Assembly: GCA_012515365.1 (NCBI GenBank)
Contig: JAAYYM010000627.1
Span: 1-12,076 of the forward strand
From: Clostridia bacterium
Lineage (GTDB): Bacteria > Bacillota_A > Clostridia > Lachnospirales > Lachnospiraceae
Direction: 5' to 3'
Length of the DNA stretch: 12,076 nucleotides
Shown here: in pieces, positions 1-11,623 of the stretch
Layout: every line of letters starts with the position of its first letter
Position numbering within the stretch: position 1 is the stretch's first letter
Notes under the pieces: model-generated
Database searches by the model: none
What the model saw: only the letters and a program-made list of their open reading frames with translations
What the model was told of the DNA's origin: nothing
Translations under genes and position numbers: made by a program

Positions 1-1400
1 ACAGCCTTCCATGTATGTTCCTCATCATACCAAAGTGCATCCAACTCCTCGACACTACGTCCTTGCTGCTCGACCCATGTATAATATTTCAAATTATGAA
101 TCCGTTTACGTGACACATATGTCAGTTCTTCCATATTGTCTGTTTTTATATCCAAAATGTGACGTGCATAATCTAGTGCAGCCATAGTAGGTGTATAGTC
201 CCCATTCTCTTCCTTCAGCTCCTCGATTCTGGATCCATACATGACTGACGAATCTGTCATAACGGTGGCAATCACGTCATGCTCTGTCAATTCATAGTAT
301 TTTGCCATTTTAATCGCGCAAAGCATATTGGCGATTCCTGAAATGCCAAAGTATGAAAGCATTTCTACAAATGCAGGATCTACCAAAGCTTCCTTGATCA
401 GATATTCCTGACCGACCGGCTCATTAAAGAATCGAATCAGCTTCTGGCTATCCTCATCATCTATATCAATGACTAAATCTGTATTTTTTACATTATGGAT
501 CCACGGTACATGTTTATCACCAATTCCTTCGATGCGATGGCCTCCAAACCCATTATTTAAAAGTGTCGGACACTGTAATGCCTCTCCCACACCGAGCTTT
601 GCCGTTGGATATTGTTCCTTTAGATAATCTCCAGATGCCATTGTTCCTGCTGATCCTGATGTAAAAACAGCTCCGGCAAAACGGTCACCCGGCTGTTTCA
701 TTTCTTCAAAAGCATCAGCAATTGCACTTCCGGTCACCTGATAATGCCACAGATAATTGCCCATCTCCTCGAATTGATTAAAAATCAAAACATCCTTTCT
801 TGTATGCTTCAGTTCCCAGGTCTTATCAAATATTTCTTTTACATTGCTTTCACATCCCGGCGTTGCAATCACTTCACCAGCTATGTTTTTTAACCAGTCA
901 AACCGTTCTTTACTCATTTCAGCAGGCAGGATGGCTATCGAATCTGCTGCCAATAATTTTGAATTAAATGCTCCACCACGACAATAATTTCCCGTAGAAG
1001 GCCAGACAGCTTTATGGTAAGTTGTGTCAAACTGCCCTGTGATCAGCCTCGGAGCCAGACAGCCAAAAGAGGCTCCCACCTTATGACACCCAGTCGGGAA
1101 CCACTTACCGATCATACAGATGATCTTTGCATCTACGCCGGTCAATTCCTTAGGAAGCACGATATAATTGCTGCCGTGAAATAAGCCTCCTCGTTCCTTT
1201 TGTTCATTTTTCCATGAAATACGAAACAAATTCAGCGGATTCACATCCCATAATCCAACATGCTGCAGCTGATCTTTAATGGAATCCGGGATCAGATCAG
1301 GATTTTTCATCTGTGCAATCGTTGGTATGATAATATGATTTTCTCTCGCTTTTCTGATATTTTTCTCTAATGCCTCTTCATTTCTTGTTAAGTCTATCAT
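1..1400 (-). CDS. PLP-dependent lyase, fold type II (cysteine synthase-like), 3' end beyond window
   Basis: An open frame runs leftward from ATG at 1398-1400 to the window edge, giving 466 codons without a stop; probably a few dozen residues are missing at the C terminus. The start is set by a strong AAAGGAGG at 1409-1416, 8 bases upstream. It looks like a fold-type II PLP enzyme (tryptophan-synthase-beta/cysteine-synthase superfamily). Lys107 in GCHKVGAS is the likely Schiff-base lysine, PSTGN at 135-139 is the substrate-carboxylate loop, and TSGSAGT at 247-253 is the glycine-rich phosphate loop. It is distinct from E. coli YgeX (diaminopropionate ammonia-lyase), whose active-site context I recall differently, but it sits where ygeX would be expected, divergent from ygeY-ygeW-arcC. 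Inference: an ammonia-releasing lyase on a diamino or ureido acid made by the operon. Databases tend to call such proteins cysteine synthase; the substrate is unknown to me. Superfamily is confident, function is not. Confidence 0.85.
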   Translation of the reverse strand, partial: MIDLTRNEEALEKNIRKARENHIIIPTIAQMKNPDLIPDSIKDQLQHVGLWDVNPLNLFRISWKNEQKERGGLFHGSNYIVLPKELTGVDAKIICMIGKWFPTGCHKVGASFGCLAPRLITGQFDTTYHKAVWPSTGNYCRGGAFNSKLLAADSIAILPAEMSKERFDWLKNIAGEVIATPGCESNVKEIFDKTWELKHTRKDVLIFNQFEEMGNYLWHYQVTGSAIADAFEEMKQPGDRFAGAVFTSGSAGTMASGDYLKEQYPTAKLGVGEALQCPTLLNNGFGGHRIEGIGDKHVPWIHNVKNTDLVIDIDDEDSQKLIRFFNEPVGQEYLIKEALVDPAFVEMLSYFGISGIANMLCAIKMAKYYELTEHDVIATVMTDSSVMYGSRIEELKEENGDYTPTMAALDYARHILDIKTDNMEELTYVSRKRIHNLKYYTWVEQQGRSVEELDALWYDEEHTWKA

Positions 1401-2285: not shown

Positions 2286-2294
2286 AAATCAAAT

Positions 2295-3500
2295 ATGGAT
2301 TCTAACGCGATTAAATCAGCTGCAAAAAACTATGAAGCCGATATGACAAAGTTTCTTCGTGACCTAGTCCGAATTCCTGGAGAAAGCTGTTGTGAAAAGG
2401 GACATATCGACAGGATTGCGCAAGAAATGAAAGCACTTTCGTTTGATAAGGTCGAAATCGATCCAATGGGGAATGTACTTGGTTATATGGGAAATGGTCC
2501 ACGTATCATTGCATATGATGCACACATTGATAATGTCGGAATCGGAAACAGGGATAACTGGGACTTTGATCCTTATGAAGGTTATGAAACAGATACTGAG
2601 ATTGGCGGTCGTGGAACTTCTGATCAGCTTGGAGGACTGGTTTCTTCTGTTTATGGTGCTAAAATCATAAAAGACTTAAATCTTTTACCAGATGAATTCA
2701 CCATTTTGGTAACAGGAACTGTTCAGGAGGAAGACTGCGACGGACTTTGCTGGCAGTATATCATTAATGAGGATGACATCAGACCCGAATTTGCCGTGAT
2801 CACGGAACCAACTGATGGTAATATTTATCGTGGTCAGAGAGGGCGAATGGAGATACGTGTTCAAGTAGAGGGCATCTCCTGCCATGGTTCTGCACCTGAG
2901 CGCGGTGAAAATGCCATTTACAAGATGGCAGATATTTTGCAGGAAGTCCGCGATCTAAATGATAAACTGCATGATGATGAGTTTCTTGGAAAAGGAACGC
3001 TTGCTGTTTCAGAGGTATTTTTTACTTCTCCATCGCGCTGTGCAGTTGCTGATATGTGTGCAATTTCGATTGACCGCCGTTTGACAAATAACGAAACCTA
3101 CACGATGGCACTTGATGAAATCAGAGCACTTGAAAGCGTCAAAAAATATCAGGCTGTTGTATCTATGTATCAATATGAGCGTCCAAGCTATACCGGTCTC
3201 GTATATCCGACTGACTGCTATTTTCCGACTTGGGTAATCCCGGAGTCACATCCGGCAACGCAGGCTATGGTAAAAGCGCATGAAGGACTGTTTGGAAAAC
3301 CAACGGTAGATAAATGGACGTTCTCAACGAATGGAGTCTCCATAATGGGAAGGTTTCATATCCCATGTATTGGTTTCGGACCGGGTAAGGAAGCTCAGGC
3401 ACACGCTCCGAATGAACATACATGGAAAGAGGATCTGGTAAAATGTGCTGCCGTTTATGCTGCACTTCCTACATATTACAGCAATATCACTTCAAACTAA
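2295..3500 (+). CDS. ygeY: YgeY family M20-type metallohydrolase (selenium-metabolism-linked hydrolase)
   Basis: A 401-residue M20/ArgE/DapE-type dinuclear zinc amidohydrolase. Expected metal ligands and catalytic residues are present: His77 and Asp79 in YDAHIDN, Asp110 in [10 protein letters not shown], the catalytic Glu pair 145-146 in VQEED, Glu171 in VITEPTDG, and a C-terminal His370 in the HAPNE block. His197 in [10 protein letters not shown] belongs to the lid/dimerisation domain (about 185-300). Length and blocks match YgeY, found with selenium-dependent molybdenum hydroxylase and purine clusters. The likely reaction is hydrolysis of an amide or carbamoyl bond in a ring-opened purine intermediate in the cytoplasm; in the E. 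coli urate route it acts upstream of YgeW, though I cannot fix the exact substrate from sequence. It lies 21 bases before ygeW in the same operon. Dipeptidase or deacetylase labels are less specific alternatives. Confidence 0.92.
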
Positions 3501-3521
3501 CAACATTGGGAGGTATCTCGC

Positions 3522-4715
3522 ATGGAAACCTTAAGTATGTATATAGACCAACTGAATCAACTAAATTTTAAAGAGATGTATCAAAATGATTTTTTCCTGA
3601 CCTGGGAGAAATCGGATCAGGAAATAGCTGCGGTATTTGCAGTAGCTGATGCACTGCGATATCTGCGTAAAAAAAATATCTCCGTAAAAGCTTTTGAAAG
3701 CGGACTTGGTATCTCATTATTCAGAGATAATTCGACAAGAACAAGATTTTCTTTTGCTTCTGCCTGCGATCTGCTTGGACTAAAGGTACAGGATCTTGAC
3801 GAAGGAAAATCTCAGATTGCACACGGTGAAACAGTTCGCGAAACAGCAAATATGATCTCTTTTATGGCTGATGTAATCGGAATCAGAGACGACATGTATA
3901 TTGGAAAAGGGAACACATACATGAGAAGTGTCTCTAAAGCTGTCAGAGATGGCTATGAGGCAGGTATTTTAGAACAAATTCCTACTCTGGTCAATTTGCA
4001 GTGTGACATTGACCATCCGACACAATGTATGGCTGATATGCTGCATATCATTCATGAATTTGGTGGTGTTGAAAATCTAAAAGGAAAGAAAATTGCTATG
4101 ACCTGGGCTTACTCTCCTTCCTATGGAAAACCACTGTCTGTTCCTCAAGGTATCATTGGTCTTATGACAAGGTTTGGTATGGATGTTGTACTGGCGCATC
4201 CTGAAGGGTATGAAGTTATGCCGGAATGTGAAGAAGTTGCACAAAAACAAGCTGCTGCCTCTTCAGGATCCTTCACTAAAACAAATCAAATGGCAGAAGC
4301 ATTTAAGGATGCAGACATTGTTTATCCAAAAAGCTGGGCACCATTTGCTGCCATGGAAGAGCGAACCGAACTATATGCTAATTATGATTTTGATGGGATT
4401 AAAGAACTGGAAAAGAGAATGCTTGCACAAAATGCAGCTCATAAAGACTGGACTTGTTCAGAAGATCTTATGCGTACAACCAAAGATGGGAAAGCACTCT
4501 ACATGCATTGTCTTCCAGCTGATATTTCTGGCGTAAGCTGTGAAAAAGGTGAAGTAGATGCTTCTGTTTTTGACCGTTATCGCACGCCACTTTATAAACA
4601 GGCCAGTTTTAAACCATATATCATAGCTGCTATGATTTTTCTTGCTAAATTTCAAGATCCCGCTGCACTTCTCAAGCAATTTGAAACAAAGAACCAGCCT
4701 CGCAAACAACTTTAA
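3522..4715 (+). CDS. ygeW: Knotted carbamoyltransferase YgeW
   Basis: A 397-residue aspartate/ornithine carbamoyltransferase superfamily member. The carbamoyl-phosphate motif STRTR is at 71-75, HPTQ at 165-168 and HCLP at 329-332, all intact. The family-typical insertions, its length (near the 396 of E. coli YgeW) and the context place it in the YgeW type rather than ArgF or PyrB. GGGAGG at 3508-3513 supports the start, 8 bases away. The E. coli enzyme does not use ornithine or aspartate well; work on anaerobic purine degradation implicates phosphorolysis of a ureido acid related to 2,3-diaminopropionate, giving carbamoyl phosphate. The carbamate kinase gene begins 30 bases downstream, which supports the catabolic direction. 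ArgF/PyrB biosynthetic roles are unlikely because no arginine or pyrimidine genes are near. Confidence 0.93.
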   Translation: METLSMYIDQLNQLNFKEMYQNDFFLTWEKSDQEIAAVFAVADALRYLRKKNISVKAFESGLGISLFRDNSTRTRFSFASACDLLGLKVQDLDEGKSQIAHGETVRETANMISFMADVIGIRDDMYIGKGNTYMRSVSKAVRDGYEAGILEQIPTLVNLQCDIDHPTQCMADMLHIIHEFGGVENLKGKKIAMTWAYSPSYGKPLSVPQGIIGLMTRFGMDVVLAHPEGYEVMPECEEVAQKQAAASSGSFTKTNQMAEAFKDADIVYPKSWAPFAAMEERTELYANYDFDGIKELEKRMLAQNAAHKDWTCSEDLMRTTKDGKALYMHCLPADISGVSCEKGEVDASVFDRYRTPLYKQASFKPYIIAAMIFLAKFQDPAALLKQFETKNQPRKQL

Positions 4716-4745
4716 GTTTTATCCAAAAGACAAAAGGAGGATCAT

Positions 4746-5681
4746 ATGGCAAGAATCGTCATTGCACTTGGTGGAAATGCACTTGGATCTACGCTTCCGG
4801 AACAAATGAAGGCTGTTTCGATCACATCTCGTGCCATCGCTGATTTGATTCAGGCTGGACACGATGTTATCATTTCTCATGGAAATGGCCCTCAGGTAGG
4901 AATGATTAATCATGCTATGGCAGCTCTGTCCCGTGAGAATCCGACACATCCCAACACACCATTATCAGTCTGTGTTGCCATGAGTCAAGCCTATATTGGA
5001 TATGATCTGCAAAATGCACTTCGTGAAGAGTTATCTAAGCGTGGCATAAAAAAACCTGTAACGACAATGATCACTCAGGTTCGCGTAGATGAACATGACC
5101 CTGCTTTTCTCCATCCTGATAAACCCATTGGTCATTTTATGACAAAGGAGCAGGCAGAGTATGCAAAAAAGGAATATGGATACCAGATCACAGAGGATTC
5201 CGGACGAGGCTATCGTCGTGTAGTTGCATCTCCGCGCCCTGTTGAAATCATAGAAATTGAGTCCATCCGGACTTTAGTCGAAGCCGGTGATATTGTGATT
5301 GCTGCAGGTGGTGGCGGAATTCCGGTCTGTCTTAAAGGAACTCATTTGCGGGGAATCAGTGCTGTGATTGATAAGGATTTTGTTAGTGCAAAAATGGCAC
5401 AAGATTTAAATGCTGATATTCTGATTATTTTGACAGCTGTTGAGAAAGTAGCCATTCACTTTAACAAGCCTGATGTAAAATGGCTTACAAAAATGACAGT
5501 CAGTGAAGCTGCTGCATATATGAATGATCAGGAGTTTGCTGCAGGTTCCATGCTTCCAAAAGTCCGTGCAGCTATGGAATTCACAGCATCCAGAAAAGAC
5601 CGCTTCGCCGTGATCACATTACTGACAAGTGCGAAGGATGCCCTAGATGGTAAAACCGGAACTCGCATACTAAATGACTAA
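4746..5681 (+). CDS. arcC: Carbamate kinase
   Basis: A 311-residue amino-acid-kinase-fold protein. Diagnostic blocks are ALGGNALG (7-14), SHGNGPQVG (44-52), the GGGGIPV nucleotide/substrate loop (188-194), DKD (209-211) and GSMLPKV (267-273). It converts carbamoyl phosphate plus ADP to ATP, CO2 and ammonia. AAAGGAGG at 4733-4740 precedes the start by 5 bases. It is last in the operon and directly follows ygeW, so it probably harvests ATP from carbamoyl phosphate released from ureides rather than from the arginine deiminase pathway, since arcA is absent here. It corresponds in role to yqeA of the E. coli cluster. Its 3' end overlaps that of guaD by 12 bases. Confidence 0.95.
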   Translation: MARIVIALGGNALGSTLPEQMKAVSITSRAIADLIQAGHDVIISHGNGPQVGMINHAMAALSRENPTHPNTPLSVCVAMSQAYIGYDLQNALREELSKRGIKKPVTTMITQVRVDEHDPAFLHPDKPIGHFMTKEQAEYAKKEYGYQITEDSGRGYRRVVASPRPVEIIEIESIRTLVEAGDIVIAAGGGGIPVCLKGTHLRGISAVIDKDFVSAKMAQDLNADILIILTAVEKVAIHFNKPDVKWLTKMTVSEAAAYMNDQEFAAGSMLPKVRAAMEFTASRKDRFAVITLLTSAKDALDGKTGTRILND

Positions 5682-6953
5682 TTGCCTTCCGGCTACGTAT
5701 TTTGCCTGAATCTTTATTTTTGATTCCAAATAAGCACTTCGTTCAAGTCTTTGCTGAATATTATATTGATTCAATTTACATAATTCACTATCATCTATTA
5801 TAACTGCATCCATTTCATAGTCTGGATCAAAAGAACCGACTTTTCCAAAAAATGAACCTCCACCTATTGTTGCCAGATAAAAAGCTTCTGTGAACCGCAG
5901 AGGCTTTTCTTTTTCATCGATTAATCGAAAACGAAGCTTTGATACCGAAATGGCATTTACAATCATTTGAAGCATCGAAATCGAATGACCGCCTGCAAGA
6001 TCAGTTGCCAAGCCGACTTTCAGTCCTTCATTCAGATATCTACGTATTGGTGCAATTCCAGAAGATAAATTTGTATTAGAAGAAGGGCAATGTGCTACAT
6101 AAACTCCGTTTTGCTTCATTAGATTCTGCTCTTCTTTTGTAACATAAATACAATGTGCCATGATTGCCGGATAGTCTCCACCAAACATACCGACCCTGTC
6201 ATAAGCATCCGCATATCCTGAAGCATCAGGTACAAGATTCTTTACCCAGTCAACCTCAGACATATTTTCTGATAAATGTGATTGTACACTTAAATTCCAT
6301 TCTCTTCTGATTTGTGACAGTTTTGTCATTAATTCGTCTGTACACGATGGAATGAATCTCGGTGTCAAAATCGGTTCTGTTCGCTGATATCGTCCACTAG
6401 TTTCATTAAGCCATCTAAGGGTGTCCTTAATAGATGCCTCGGCACTCTCTTCACATAAATAACTCGGCGCATTACGATCCATATTGACCTTGCCAATCTT
6501 GGTGATCAGACCACTTTGCTCCATCTGATCCATCAGGATTTCTGTAGCCTTAAGATGACAGGTCGCAAATATGCAGGCTCTCGTTGTTACACTGTGTGTC
6601 AGATCATCTGTAAAGGTCTGATATGCCTTCCTCGCATATTCAAGATCCGCATATCTGGCTTCCTCCGGAAAGGTCTGCGTATCGAGCCATTCCAATAATT
6701 CCATATCCATGCCTAACCCGCAAAAAGAATATTGAGGTGCATGAACATGCAGATCCGTCATCCCCGGGATGATCAGCGAATGTTGATAATCATGAATCTG
6801 TAAAGCCGCGTATTGCTCCGGCAATTCATCAAATACCCCCTGACAGATTCCATCTATACAAACAAGATAACCACCACTTACACTATTCACACTTTCACTG
6901 TCAATACTATAACAAATATCCCCTTTTAAAACTATACTGGTTTCCTTTTGCAC
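5670..6953 (-). CDS. guaD: Guanine deaminase (GuaD-type amidohydrolase)
   Basis: A 427-residue zinc amidohydrolase converting guanine to xanthine and ammonia. Metal ligands are His69 and His71 in DLHVHAPQYSF, His226 in QSHLSEN, His267 in MAHC and Asp318 in ATDLAGG. Guanine-deaminase features include LLEWL..TFPEE around 86-98, TPRF at 197-200 and HCPSSNTNLSSG at 288-299. These favour GuaD over the related SsnA, and both occur in such clusters. The start is GTG at 6951-6953, chosen because GAGGTGA (6958-6964) is well spaced and no upstream ATG fits. It follows a TetR gene by 18 bases, so the two are probably cotranscribed. It feeds xanthine into the neighbouring purine pathway. Confidence 0.92.
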   Translation of the reverse strand: MQKETSIVLKGDICYSIDSESVNSVSGGYLVCIDGICQGVFDELPEQYAALQIHDYQHSLIIPGMTDLHVHAPQYSFCGLGMDMELLEWLDTQTFPEEARYADLEYARKAYQTFTDDLTHSVTTRACIFATCHLKATEILMDQMEQSGLITKIGKVNMDRNAPSYLCEESAEASIKDTLRWLNETSGRYQRTEPILTPRFIPSCTDELMTKLSQIRREWNLSVQSHLSENMSEVDWVKNLVPDASGYADAYDRVGMFGGDYPAIMAHCIYVTKEEQNLMKQNGVYVAHCPSSNTNLSSGIAPIRRYLNEGLKVGLATDLAGGHSISMLQMIVNAISVSKLRFRLIDEKEKPLRFTEAFYLATIGGGSFFGKVGSFDPDYEMDAVIIDDSELCKLNQYNIQQRLERSAYLESKIKIQAKYVAGRQLVI

Positions 6954-7646: not shown

Positions 7647-10250
7647 TTAATGTCCTTTATTTTGAAACGATTCCATGGCTGCATCATTCAATCGCTTAAC
7701 CTCTTCCTTTAAATCCAAAGCTGAAAGCAGATGGCAGCCTGCGCCCCGAATAATGATCTGTTCCAGTCCATCCGATGTTGCTACCGTGATCCGATGTTTA
7801 GATGCATGGTCATGTGCAAATCGTTCTATGTAACGATCAGCAGTTTCTGCCTCTTTTGTATAGACCACATGAATGTTATGGTAATCCGTGACACTAGTGT
7901 CATGTCCCTTTACACGATACGCATCAAACACTAAAATCAAATTACATTTTCTAAGCGCCTGATAATTACACATGATATCCATCAGTGCGCCCCGTGCCCC
8001 ATCGAGGTTTACGGCGGCTAGTTCCTTCAGTTCCTGCCAAGCATAAATGATATTATATCCATCAACCAAAAGATAATCTTCTCCGATCAGAGTACTGTTA
8101 TAATTTCCGTTTCTGACACTCGTGACATTTTTCTGTGTATATGTAACATCCTTTTCTGATGGCTCTCTTTTTGTATAGGACCATTTATTTGCCGACGATC
8201 CGTCTCTCTTGTTTGCATTGGTAGCACGTTTTAAGATTGCGTCCACTTCTTCAACGCTGATGAATGTATCCCTGTCAAAGCAACTCTCTGATTTCAAAGA
8301 AATATCTGTTTCCTCATCTGACAATGCTTCCTGTGGACGATAGACTCTCTCGACATGCATATGATCGAATACCTGATCCCATGGTACAATAAATCCAGCA
8401 CCATGTGCACAAAACACAGAACCTGATGGATATTCGAGATCATGCTCAGCTTCATAACCGATCATTTTTATGACCTCATCTGCATTATGACATGGTTCAT
8501 ACCCTGAAAAACTACAGAATAATCGTCCTAGTCCTTTTGTATAGGAAATCACTTCTTTCGAATATTCACCTAGACTTGCAACAGGTACGTAACCTGATAT
8601 AACTGCTGTATCGTCTGTCATCTGTGGTGGTTCAAATCGTCCACCCATTCTTTCAATATCCGTCATTGCACGCCCTGTCATCTGACTTGGGATCTCCAGT
8701 CGAAATTGATAGAAAGGCTCCAATAAAAGAGAGTCAGCCTGACATAACCCCTGGCGCAATGCACGATAGGTCGCCTGTCTAAAGTCTCCACCCTCTGTAT
8801 GCTTTGTATGTGCTCGTCCTGCGACAACAGTGACTCGTATATCGGTGATGGCAGCACCTGTTAACACACCCTTATGAATTCGTTCTGACAAATGTGTCAG
8901 AATTAGACGCTGCCAGTTCTTATCAAGTATGTCCTCACTACAGTTAAGTGCAAACTGCATACCACTTCCACGCTCTAATGGTTCCAGCAGTAAATGAACC
9001 TCTGCATAATGCTTCAGTGGTTCAAAATGTCCCACGCCCTCTACTGTATTGATAATTGTTTCTTTATATACGATATGGCCTGTTCCAAACTCGACCTCCG
9101 TTTGAAATCGTTCTCGTATCAGGCTCTTTAGTATCTCGATCTGAACCTCTCCCATGATCTGAACCTGGATTTCCTTCAATGTATCATTCCAGATCACATG
9201 CAGCTCTGGTACTTCTTCTTCCAATTCACGCAGTTTCATCAACATGACAGTGTTGTCACATCCATCCGGCAGTTGTAGCTGGTAAGTTAGAAGGGGTTCC
9301 AGTACCGGTGTTTTCGATGCCTGCTCCATGCCCAATCCTTCCCCTGCTCTTGTAACAGATAGTCCGGTCACTGCACAGATATCACCCGCCTGTACTTCTG
9401 AACGTAATTCATATTTTGTTCCGGAATAACTTCTGATCTGGTTGATTTTCTCTCCATTGATTACACTTTTTACTAAAAGTTTTCCACCGGTAATCTTCAT
9501 ATATGTCAGTCTGTTTCCCTGCTCATCACGTGATATTTTAAATACTCTGGCACCAAAATCATCTGGATATGATTTCTGCTCTGTGTACTCTGACAGACCA
9601 TTTAGAAATTCCTCTACACCATGTGTCAAAAGAGCTGAACCAAAGAAACAAGGATATAATTTTCTGTTCGTAATCAGTTTTCTGATTACTTCAGATGGAA
9701 TAGTTCCTCCCTCAAGAAATAAATCAAGCACAGCTTCCTCACAAGTCGCTACAGCTTCATAAAATTCATCCGTCTGAGTAATCGTAAAGTCAATACAGTT
9801 ACTGTCAAGCCGAGTGCTGAGTTCACTCATCAGTTCCTTTTGTATGGTTCCCGGCTGATCCATCTTATTGATAAAGAGAAACGTCGGAATGTGATACCTC
9901 TTTAACAGCTGCCATAAAGTGTGCGTATGACTTTGCACCCCATCCGATCCACTAATAACAAGAATTGCATAATCCAAAACACTCAGAGTGCGCTCCATCT
10001 CTGCAGAAAAATCTACATGCCCCGGGGTATCTAATAAAATGATCTCAAGATCCTTCATCGTTAATCTTGCCTGCTTTGAGAAAATGGTGATGCCTCTTGC
10101 CCGCTCAAGTGCATAGGTATCCAAAAAGGCATCCTGATGATCCACTCTTCCCTGTTTTCTGATTGCACCACTTATATACAGCATCGCTTCTGATAGTGTG
10201 GTTTTCCCGGCATCTACGTGAGCCAGTATGCCTATAACTGTCCGCTTCAT
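7647..10250 (-). CDS. Tet(M)/EF-G-like translational GTPase fused to a C-terminal YacP/Rae1-like NYN RNase domain
   Basis: An 867-residue protein; canonical Tet(M)/Tet(O) proteins are about 640. The GTPase domain (1-225) is intact: AHVDAGKT 10-17, RGIT 52-55, DTPGH 74-78 with the catalytic His78, NKMD 128-131 and GSA about 204-206. Domains II and III span about 230-398, domain IV about 398-520 and the EF-G C-terminal domain about 520-640. A low-complexity polar linker (645-725) leads to an NYN/YacP-like domain (726-860) with acidic candidates Asp730 in DGYN, Asp776 in VFDAYR, the TKEAETAD block at 798-805 and Asp827 in ATSDG. Rae1/YacP of Bacillus cleaves mRNA in the ribosomal A site, where EF-G-like factors also bind. 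The Tet(M) tip YSPVSTPADFR is replaced by HTKHTEGGDFR (481-491), so tetracycline resistance is doubtful. The gene starts 14 bases after trxA (GGAGAG site). I infer ribosome rescue or stress-coupled mRNA cleavage. Confidence 0.9.
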   Translation of the reverse strand: MKRTVIGILAHVDAGKTTLSEAMLYISGAIRKQGRVDHQDAFLDTYALERARGITIFSKQARLTMKDLEIILLDTPGHVDFSAEMERTLSVLDYAILVISGSDGVQSHTHTLWQLLKRYHIPTFLFINKMDQPGTIQKELMSELSTRLDSNCIDFTITQTDEFYEAVATCEEAVLDLFLEGGTIPSEVIRKLITNRKLYPCFFGSALLTHGVEEFLNGLSEYTEQKSYPDDFGARVFKISRDEQGNRLTYMKITGGKLLVKSVINGEKINQIRSYSGTKYELRSEVQAGDICAVTGLSVTRAGEGLGMEQASKTPVLEPLLTYQLQLPDGCDNTVMLMKLRELEEEVPELHVIWNDTLKEIQVQIMGEVQIEILKSLIRERFQTEVEFGTGHIVYKETIINTVEGVGHFEPLKHYAEVHLLLEPLERGSGMQFALNCSEDILDKNWQRLILTHLSERIHKGVLTGAAITDIRVTVVAGRAHTKHTEGGDFRQATYRALRQGLCQADSLLLEPFYQFRLEIPSQMTGRAMTDIERMGGRFEPPQMTDDTAVISGYVPVASLGEYSKEVISYTKGLGRLFCSFSGYEPCHNADEVIKMIGYEAEHDLEYPSGSVFCAHGAGFIVPWDQVFDHMHVERVYRPQEALSDEETDISLKSESCFDRDTFISVEEVDAILKRATNANKRDGSSANKWSYTKREPSEKDVTYTQKNVTSVRNGNYNSTLIGEDYLLVDGYNIIYAWQELKELAAVNLDGARGALMDIMCNYQALRKCNLILVFDAYRVKGHDTSVTDYHNIHVVYTKEAETADRYIERFAHDHASKHRITVATSDGLEQIIIRGAGCHLLSALDLKEEVKRLNDAAMESFQNKGH

Positions 10251-10264
10251 TTTACTCTCCGGTT

Positions 10265-10576
10265 TTACAAATACTTTTCTATCACTTTTTTTATCTCTTC
10301 TTTTGGCTTAAATCCGATCTGAAGCTCCTGCTTTTCGCCGTCCTTCATAATGATTAAGGTAGGCAGCATGCTGACACCGTACTCAGTTGTAATCTTTGGA
10401 TTAGAGTCTGTATCAATATTATAAAAGCTGACTTTCCCATCCATTTCTTTTGATAATTCCTCGAGCACCGGCTCCATCATTCTGCATGGACCACACCATG
10501 CAGCTGAAAAATCTACTACCGTAATACCTTTCAGATCTGCTTGTCTAAATTCACTCTCATTCACTTTCTTTACCAT
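10265..10576 (-). CDS. trxA: Thioredoxin
   Basis: A 103-residue single-domain thioredoxin, the usual length. It has the active site WCGPC at 27-31, buried Asp22 in VVDFSAAW, and the cis-proline Pro72 in MLPTL. It reduces protein disulfides in the cytoplasm. AAGGAG about 8 bases upstream supports ATG 10576. It lies downstream of a thioredoxin-reductase-like gene, 165 bases away with a palindromic element between them. It is 14 bases upstream of the GTPase-NYN fusion, so it and the fusion are almost certainly on one transcript. No signal peptide or unusual residues are seen. Confidence 0.96.
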   Translation of the reverse strand: MVKKVNESEFRQADLKGITVVDFSAAWCGPCRMMEPVLEELSKEMDGKVSFYNIDTDSNPKITTEYGVSMLPTLIIMKDGEKQELQIGFKPKEEIKKVIEKYL

Positions 10577-10741: not shown

Positions 10742-11623
10742 CTATTTCGCAGTCATCTGTCGTTTTTTCTGATCTAGATATCCGGCTGCAGATAATGCTG
10801 CGATATTTCCCTCACCTGCTGACTTAATATACTGATAAGGAGTGCCTACGATATCTCCGCATGCAAAACATCCCTGAAGATTTGTTTCCATTTTTCGATT
10901 TACTACAACATGTCCATCCGATACAGAAATACCGGGAACCAGCTGACTCGGTGCAACACTTTCACGTAAGATGAAAATACCATCCGCTTCATATTCGCCC
11001 TTTTGTGTAATCAGTTTTTCAACCTTTTCAGACCCATCTATGGAAATCGGCTTATCTTCAATAATCTCTATCTGCTCTGATAAAGTAACCGGTTCCTGAT
11101 ACATCGGAATATAGGAAACATGTTCGGCTAATTCCGACAAAAATTCTGCTTCTGCCTCATCCTTTTTTGCATACCCGATGACAATGACCTTTTTACCTCG
11201 GTAAAGTGCCCCATCACAGGTAGCACAATAACTGACACCTCTTCCTAGGTAATGTTCCTCTTTTGGATAAGGTTTTCCAAAATTCACTCCTGTTGCCAGG
11301 ATCACGCTGTCTGCCTCGTAGATCTGATTATTCGATGCCCATAAAGCAAAGTAGTCACCCATTGCATAAACAGCTGTGACTTTGTCCTCGGTTATCTCGA
11401 TTTCCATTTTTCTTAAATGTTCACGAAAATGTTCTGCGAGTGCTTCCCCGGTAATAGATGGCAGTCCAAGATAATTTTGAATCTCATGTGCCTTTGAAAG
11501 CTTGTAACTTAACTCATGACTTCCGATCAGCAGGATATTCTTTTTTCTGATTTTCAATGTGATCGCTGCAGATAATCCCGCCGGACCTGTGCCAATGATC
11601 GCTACATCAAATCGCTCACTCAT
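10742..11623 (-). CDS. Thioredoxin reductase-like flavoprotein lacking NADPH motifs (FFTR-like)
   Basis: A 293-residue protein of the low-molecular-weight thioredoxin reductase family (TrxB is usually about 310-320). The FAD-binding GTGPAG is at 11-16, the redox pair CATC at 133-136, and the C-terminal FAD block ACGDIVG...GEGNIAA at 254-276. The second dinucleotide fold is altered: the expected GGGxSAxEEA reads GYAKKDEAEAE at 150-160, and the HRRxxxR motif is missing, with VSYIPMYQEP at about 169-178 instead. Both motifs bind NADPH in classic TrxB. Their loss together with the short length matches ferredoxin-dependent flavin thioredoxin reductases described in Clostridium. It probably reduces the TrxA encoded downstream. 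A strong AAGGAGG sits a few bases before ATG 11623. Enzyme class is secure; the electron donor is inferred. Confidence 0.88.
   Translation of the reverse strand: MSERFDVAIIGTGPAGLSAAITLKIRKKNILLIGSHELSYKLSKAHEIQNYLGLPSITGEALAEHFREHLRKMEIEITEDKVTAVYAMGDYFALWASNNQIYEADSVILATGVNFGKPYPKEEHYLGRGVSYCATCDGALYRGKKVIVIGYAKKDEAEAEFLSELAEHVSYIPMYQEPVTLSEQIEIIEDKPISIDGSEKVEKLITQKGEYEADGIFILRESVAPSQLVPGISVSDGHVVVNRKMETNLQGCFACGDIVGTPYQYIKSAGEGNIAALSAAGYLDQKKRQMTAK

Follow-up and report, generated by a model that had tools for sequence, protein, structure and literature searches.

An EF-G-type GTPase fused to a Rae1-like nuclease domain as the probable Rae1 of many Clostridia

EF-G-type factors insert their domain IV into the A site of the ribosome. 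The small nuclease Rae1 (YacP), in other bacteria a free-standing enzyme that depends on the ribosome, is described as cutting mRNA in this site (PMC12320835), an activity given as "proposed" elsewhere (PMC10100781), and both papers cite it as needing translation; how it recognizes its target ribosomes is left open in the accessible parts of this literature. Tet proteins carrying a YacP-like NYN domain have been reported from ten Clostridiales species and, in the accessible text, are filed as Tet resistance proteins (Atkinson 2015, PMC4342817). The DNA examined here, a stretch of 12,076 nt from a Clostridia bacterium of the Lachnospiraceae (positions 1-12,076 of contig JAAYYM010000627.1, assembly GCA_012515365.1; hereafter the window), encodes a protein of this kind, a translational GTPase fused to a Rae1-like nuclease domain. 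The architecture has been known in print since 2015, and what is new here is the mutual exclusion of the fusion and stand-alone rae1, a chromosomal slot lacking rae1, a separate GTPase clade with its own domain-IV tip and the loss of the basic C-terminal end of Rae1; we found no prior report of these in the open-licence literature, though Condon 2018, which deals with how Rae1 is distributed, may describe part of them or the fusion itself. We think it fairly probable that the fusion serves these bacteria as their Rae1 nuclease, which its EF-G-type GTPase would deliver to ribosomes.

The first-pass annotation, made from the letters of the window, had placed an uninterrupted frame of 867 residues at 7647-10250 with no strand given. 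The frame lies on the minus strand, with an ATG start and no internal stops, and the plus strand across the same interval is full of stops. Its Pfam domains run in the order EF-G G domain, II, III, IV and V, followed by NYN_YacP, and the gene is divided as follows.

7647..10250, minus strand: whole fusion gene, 867 codons plus stop; a single open frame, as at each of 80 related loci
9579..10238, minus strand: G domain of a translational GTPase, residues 5-224, with G1 AHVDAGKTT and DTPGH; PF00009 (GTP_EFTU), 169.5 bits
10017-10019, minus strand: His78 codon of the DTPGH motif
9333..9557, minus strand: EF-G-like domain II (EF-G_D2), residues 232-306; PF22042, 29.1 bits
9084..9299, minus strand: EF-G-like domain III (EFG_III), residues 318-389; PF14492, 25.2 bits, just below the cut-off of 27
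8736..9077, minus strand: EF-G-like domain IV (EFG_IV), residues 392-505; PF03764, 63.9 bits
8778..8810, minus strand: domain-IV tip loop HxKHTxGGDFR, residues 481-491; from the alignment of fusions and relatives
8484..8726, minus strand: EF-G-like domain V (EFG_C), residues 509-589; PF00679, 66 bits
8331..8483, minus strand: conserved C-terminal extension of the GTPase, residues 590-640, CHN...SVFCxxG...MH; common to unfused relatives
8079..8330, minus strand: variable linker, residues 641-724; from disorder prediction and lengths in 81 fusions
7662..8072, minus strand: NYN_YacP (Rae1-like) nuclease domain, residues 727-863; PF05991, 161.4 bits against a cut-off of 24.6, and matches to PDB 5mq8/5mq9
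8061-8063, 7923-7925, 7836-7838 and 7770-7772, minus strand: codons of the NYN acidic catalytic residues Asp730, Asp776, Asp805 and Asp827

The Rae1-like identity that had been assigned to the NYN domain is confirmed by its Pfam score and PDB matches, and when this part was folded alone its predicted fold matched Rae1 (5mq8/5mq9). A search with the predicted structure gave an EF-G-type fold for the GTPase part, and within the whole-protein model residues 603-867 returned no fold match beyond EF-G proteins. The linker of the window protein is predicted to be disordered apart from a weak helix at 666-680; this helix was dropped as a mark of the family, its pattern matching only 32 of 81 fusions. 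Cys587, His588, Cys614 and His632, in and at the edge of the extension (residues 587-640, 8331-8491), are conserved and partly common to unfused relatives, and are possibly a metal site.

Relatives of the fusion are encoded in 403 stretches of the genome collection, of which the best 80 were aligned with the window to give 81 fusions, a set biased towards intact fusions, since the 80 were those that best matched a query of full length. Each of the 80 related loci holds one open frame, 863-994 aa long, so the join is not the frameshift or assembly artefact that had been named as a way for the annotation to fail. The second such way, loss of the NYN catalytic residues in homologues, is likewise not what is found: D730, D776, D805 and D827, like H78, lie where they had been placed and, together with H78 and K16, are each invariant in all 81 fusions, as are the other G-motif residues H11, D13, G15, T17 and T18. 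The domain-IV tip, H481-x-K483-H484-T485-E486-G487-G488-D489-F490-R491, is at least 98% conserved apart from the variable position 482 and position 486 (90-98%). Domain IV is the most conserved part of the fusion, with a mean pairwise identity of 0.77, and is followed by NYN (0.71), the G domain (0.63), II+III (0.62), V (0.58), the extension (0.57) and the linker (0.23), which ranges from 60 to 118 residues (median 77; 84 in the window). That the NYN domain is under constraint no weaker than that on the GTPase speaks against a decaying passenger. In the protein database one entry matches with 100% identity along 85% of its length, while others of the same architecture are 69-72% identical; 7,991 candidates were scored, and PF05991 is apparently present in all among the 120 matches listed. 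Two of the related loci, L011 and L036, bear the record titles Calditrichales and Paenibacillaceae, yet their proteins resemble the Lachnospiraceae-type relatives, and the assemblies are possibly mislabelled or mixed.

The genomes that carry the fusion lack a separate rae1 almost without exception. Thirty genomes of fusion loci were chosen, and each of the 29 searched (that of L048 being left out) contains exactly one NYN_YacP match, the fused one. A wider sample comprised 293 genomes from the class to which G007 belongs (locus L010, Roseburia inulinivorans), a class that we take to be Clostridia; 192 of these have a match and 191 a match over the cut-off. Here the NYN domain is only fused in 103 genomes, only stand-alone in 87, present in both forms in one (G311) and absent from 102, a class that may include gaps since genome completeness is not given. 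Related fusions in other Clostridia had been suspected in the first-pass annotation. In this tally seven interrupted or contig-broken frames count as fused, having GTPase matches on the same contig or on a contig end; G313, with a 342 aa frame and no GTPase match, counts as stand-alone, and G289, whose match is below the cut-off, as having none. Second NYN matches in G149, G203 and G236 are also below the cut-off. The exclusivity of the two forms has a Fisher p of 1.3e-19, a value that ignores kinship.

The same division is seen in gene order. Stand-alone genomes have the order mrnC-rlmB-rae1-sigH, and when the DNA around rlmB was read in 38 genomes, with about 1.5 kb examined on the downstream side, rae1 stood directly after rlmB and before sigH in 8/8 stand-alone genomes and 0/30 fused ones. 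The eight were chosen by the authors from 88 and include G311. In the fused genomes rlmB is followed directly by sigH in 17 and by another gene in 13. These slot and NYN counts come from genomes other than the window's own. Elsewhere, the stand-alone gene of G146 adjoins sigH without rlmB, and that of G237 (L171, 1087-1608, minus strand) is not beside rlmB. The fusion gene is chromosomal, and its fused segment turned up in two plasmid records out of 72,556 and two phage records out of 50,697. Both phage records (MT835514.1 and MT835563.1) are unannotated faecal "Bacteriophage sp." entries holding the extension-linker-NYN segment over 99% and 92% of the query; they may come from a virus preparation that contained bacterial DNA, or from the edge of a prophage.

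What the fused domain has lost relative to stand-alone Rae1 is its basic end. A basic C-terminal motif is present in 16 of 20 stand-alone proteins and in 1 of 81 fusions (1 of 19 in a first comparison), a contrast that is descriptive because the pattern was drawn up after the sequences had been viewed. Two of the four stand-alone proteins without it have the near form LEAMRR. The median net charge of the tail is +3.5 in stand-alone proteins against -1 in fusions, and the four catalytic Asp columns are kept in all 20 stand-alone proteins. R166 of Bacillus subtilis Rae1 falls within this motif, and R166P is a suppressor read by its authors, in the accessible portion of their report, as a loss of Rae1 function (PMC6613710).

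The GTPase half had been described as EF-G/Tet(M)-like. The G motifs, the catalytic His and EF-G domains II-V place the protein in the EF2 family of translational GTPases, and the domain order is that of EF-G; it is not Tet(M)-type by sequence. Against the tet_protect model NF012153, with a cut-off of 775 bits, the window protein scores 428.7 and other fusions 407-443, compared with 354-392 for EF-G of the same genomes and 819-1001 for proteins over the cut-off, and on the EF-G model TIGR00484 it scores 289 bits, below the cut-off of 659.4. In the tip, Thr482-Lys483-His484 replaces Ser508-Pro509-Val510 of Tet proteins, a position that reads S-P-V or S-P-A in 4/4 over-cut-off Tet proteins. His481 aligns with His573 of Thermus thermophilus EF-G, and Lys483 with Pro509 of TetO/TetM, whose position on the ribosome overlaps that of tetracycline according to the accessible text of PMC7456112. 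Searching with a profile built from residues 1-640 also brings up unfused proteins, about 650 aa long, which score 625-786 bits apart from one partial match at 483. The unfused GTPases at loci L085-L097 keep the tip HxKHTxGGDFR, with E, S or C at one position, and keep the extension. Close relatives of one of them occur in Clostridium species under names such as "GTP-binding protein, TetM/TetW/TetO/TetS family" or "ribosome protection-type tetracycline resistance related proteins, group 2". A tree built from 57 sequences over 594 columns (FastTree local supports) gathers 20 fusions into one clade (0.921), from which it follows that the fusion arose once on the GTPase tree, and 13 unfused proteins into another (0.766); the two join at 1.0, 12 Tet-type proteins group at 0.976, and all 45 come together at 1.0. 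By these alignments and this tree, the fusion GTPase subfamily is sister to the tetracycline-protection proteins, with its own domain-IV tip. With the same profile, no second, unfused member of the subfamily was found in 24 fused genomes at E 1e-100.

Our favoured reading, in which the fusion is the Rae1 of these bacteria, would work as follows. The GTP-bound GTPase would enter the factor site of a paused or starved ribosome whose A site is free, insert domain IV, hydrolyse GTP, and leave or rearrange. The NYN domain, on its flexible tether of 60-118 residues, would then cut the message within or close to the A site, after which trans-translation and exonucleases could remove the complex. The GTPase may in this way have taken over the ribosome recognition once provided by the lost end motif. 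The overall interpretation of the first-pass annotation, a GTP-driven factor that docks on stalled ribosomes and cleaves or releases the message, is partly supported: the fusion and the conservation of both active sites are shown by computation, while binding to ribosomes, dependence on GTP, the site of the cut and the hand-over are steps that we infer. A tentative extension, which we hold to be possible but doubtful, is a nuclease timed by GTP, where an EF-G-like stroke of the tip (His481, Lys483, His484) would move or free the A-site codon and hand it to the NYN domain, hydrolysis would license the cut, and this device would have replaced free Rae1 across much of Clostridia.

Several observations weigh against the fusion acting as a GTPase-delivered Rae1. 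Rae1 and domain IV would be rivals for the A site. Since domain IV and the NYN domain could hardly fit there together, the cut would probably come after GTP hydrolysis and withdrawal of domain IV; alternatively it might be made where the mRNA enters or on an adjacent ribosome. The Fisher value for exclusivity takes no account of kinship, and a single old replacement would produce the same figure. G311, alone among the 293 genomes, has both the fusion (L084) and a stand-alone rae1 (L146/L175) in the rlmB-sigH slot. In the NYN tree, where inner support is modest, the fused domains are not strictly one clade, and the stand-alone L171 of G237 falls inside the fused group; G237 also has an unfused GTPase (L091), and the position of L171 away from rlmB together with this grouping may reflect a fission, a transfer or a remnant that predates the fusion. 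Finally, the halves occur apart, since 74/87 stand-alone-Rae1 genomes have no unfused GTPase and 7/102 NYN-less genomes have one, so that neither half needs the other. The association expected on the Rosetta-stone idea, of unfused GTPase with stand-alone Rae1 (13/87 against 7/102), is not significant (Fisher p 0.096).

The separate occurrence of the unfused GTPases, which have the same tip and extension in both sets of genomes, bears on the alternative that the partners are tethered but uncoupled, the GTPase being an EF-G-like auxiliary factor with a separate function, like that of the NYN-less Clostridium relatives, and the NYN domain gaining proximity to ribosomes and co-expression, with GTP hydrolysis not timing the cut. 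The long, length-variable and mostly predicted disordered linker is also in keeping with this arrangement, which we judge unlikely; against it, fused genomes have neither a separate rae1 nor, in the 24 searched, a second unfused subfamily member, so that both jobs rest on one polypeptide. Anantharaman and Aravind, as cited in the accessible text of PMC4342817, proposed a role of NYN proteins in rRNA/tRNA maturation, and one could imagine a ribosome-assembly or maturation nuclease in which the GTPase recognizes pre-30S or pre-50S particles and the NYN domain trims rRNA. This seems quite improbable, as the nearest relative of the NYN domain is Rae1, for which endonucleolytic cutting of mRNA in the A site is described, and a core maturation step fits poorly with the 102 of 293 genomes, of whatever completeness, that lack NYN_YacP.

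Also in PMC4342817, as far as its accessible text goes, is the suggestion that such proteins confer ribosomal-protection tetracycline resistance with the RNase as an extra resistance mechanism. The closest characterized PDB relatives of the GTPase are indeed TetO and TetM, its clade and that of the Tet proteins are sister groups (support 1.0 for the two together and 0.976 for Tet), and database names often place it in the TetM/TetW/TetO/TetS family. We nevertheless consider resistance a highly improbable function in view of the scores far under the tet_protect cut-off, the lysine at the position of Pro509 within a tip of the form HxKHTxGGDFR, and the chromosomal location with so few plasmid and phage matches. 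Moreover, 2/6 fused genomes scored with NF012153 separately encode a protein over the Tet cut-off.

The fusion gene lies between a thioredoxin gene (10265-10576) and a TetR-type regulator, all on the same strand, and across the 81 loci there is no conserved operon, the commonest neighbour family within six genes occurring in 13. PADLOC gave no defence-system match, and no tRNA or Rfam family reached the gathering score in the window. Adjoining the thioredoxin, a thioredoxin-reductase-like gene at 10742-11623 (minus strand; 197 bits against a TIGR01292 cut-off of 343) keeps a CATC motif, while the usual glycine motif of the NADPH site appears altered by eye; its product is perhaps a ferredoxin-type reductase. 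Facing the fusion gene is a selenium/purine-type cluster at 2289-6953 with ygeY (674 bits), the ygeW knotted carbamoyltransferase (772 bits), carbamate kinase and a guanine-deaminase-like gene (353.5 bits, under the cut-off of 375.4). The frame at 3-1400 (minus strand) has no NCBIfam match at E 1e-30.

If the fusion does act as we propose, the EF-G family gains an mRNA-cutting member, and mRNA cleavage on the ribosome would come under a GTP switch in gut-type Clostridia. The survival of Rae1 only as the tail of a GTPase, its basic end lost, would point to recruitment through the factor-binding site. Many chromosomal genes of this kind are named in databases for tetracycline resistance without support from their sequence, and counts of resistance genes in gut genomes may be inflated as a result.

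In comparison with known systems, the fusion GTPase shares with Tet(M)/Tet(O) the domain order I-V, the absence of the EF-G G' insertion (judged by alignment length), a sister-clade relationship and its best PDB sequence matches, TetO and TetM, but differs in its own domain-IV tip, its score below the cut-off, the CHN..FC..MH extension and the NYN domain. It retains the tip histidine of EF-G (His481) but is in a clade separate from EF-G/EF-G2, and a true EF-G is also present in 6/6 genomes searched (G007 and G203 being fused ones). Unlike Rae1/YacP of B. subtilis (5mq8, 5mq9), the nuclease is here the C-terminal domain of a GTPase, encoded outside the rlmB-rae1-sigH operon and, in 80/81 fusions, without the basic end motif. 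The proteins of Atkinson 2015 (PMC4342817) have the same architecture and are almost certainly the same family; the accessible text of that work mentions neither the replacement of Rae1 nor the empty slot nor the separate clade, which the present comparison adds to it.
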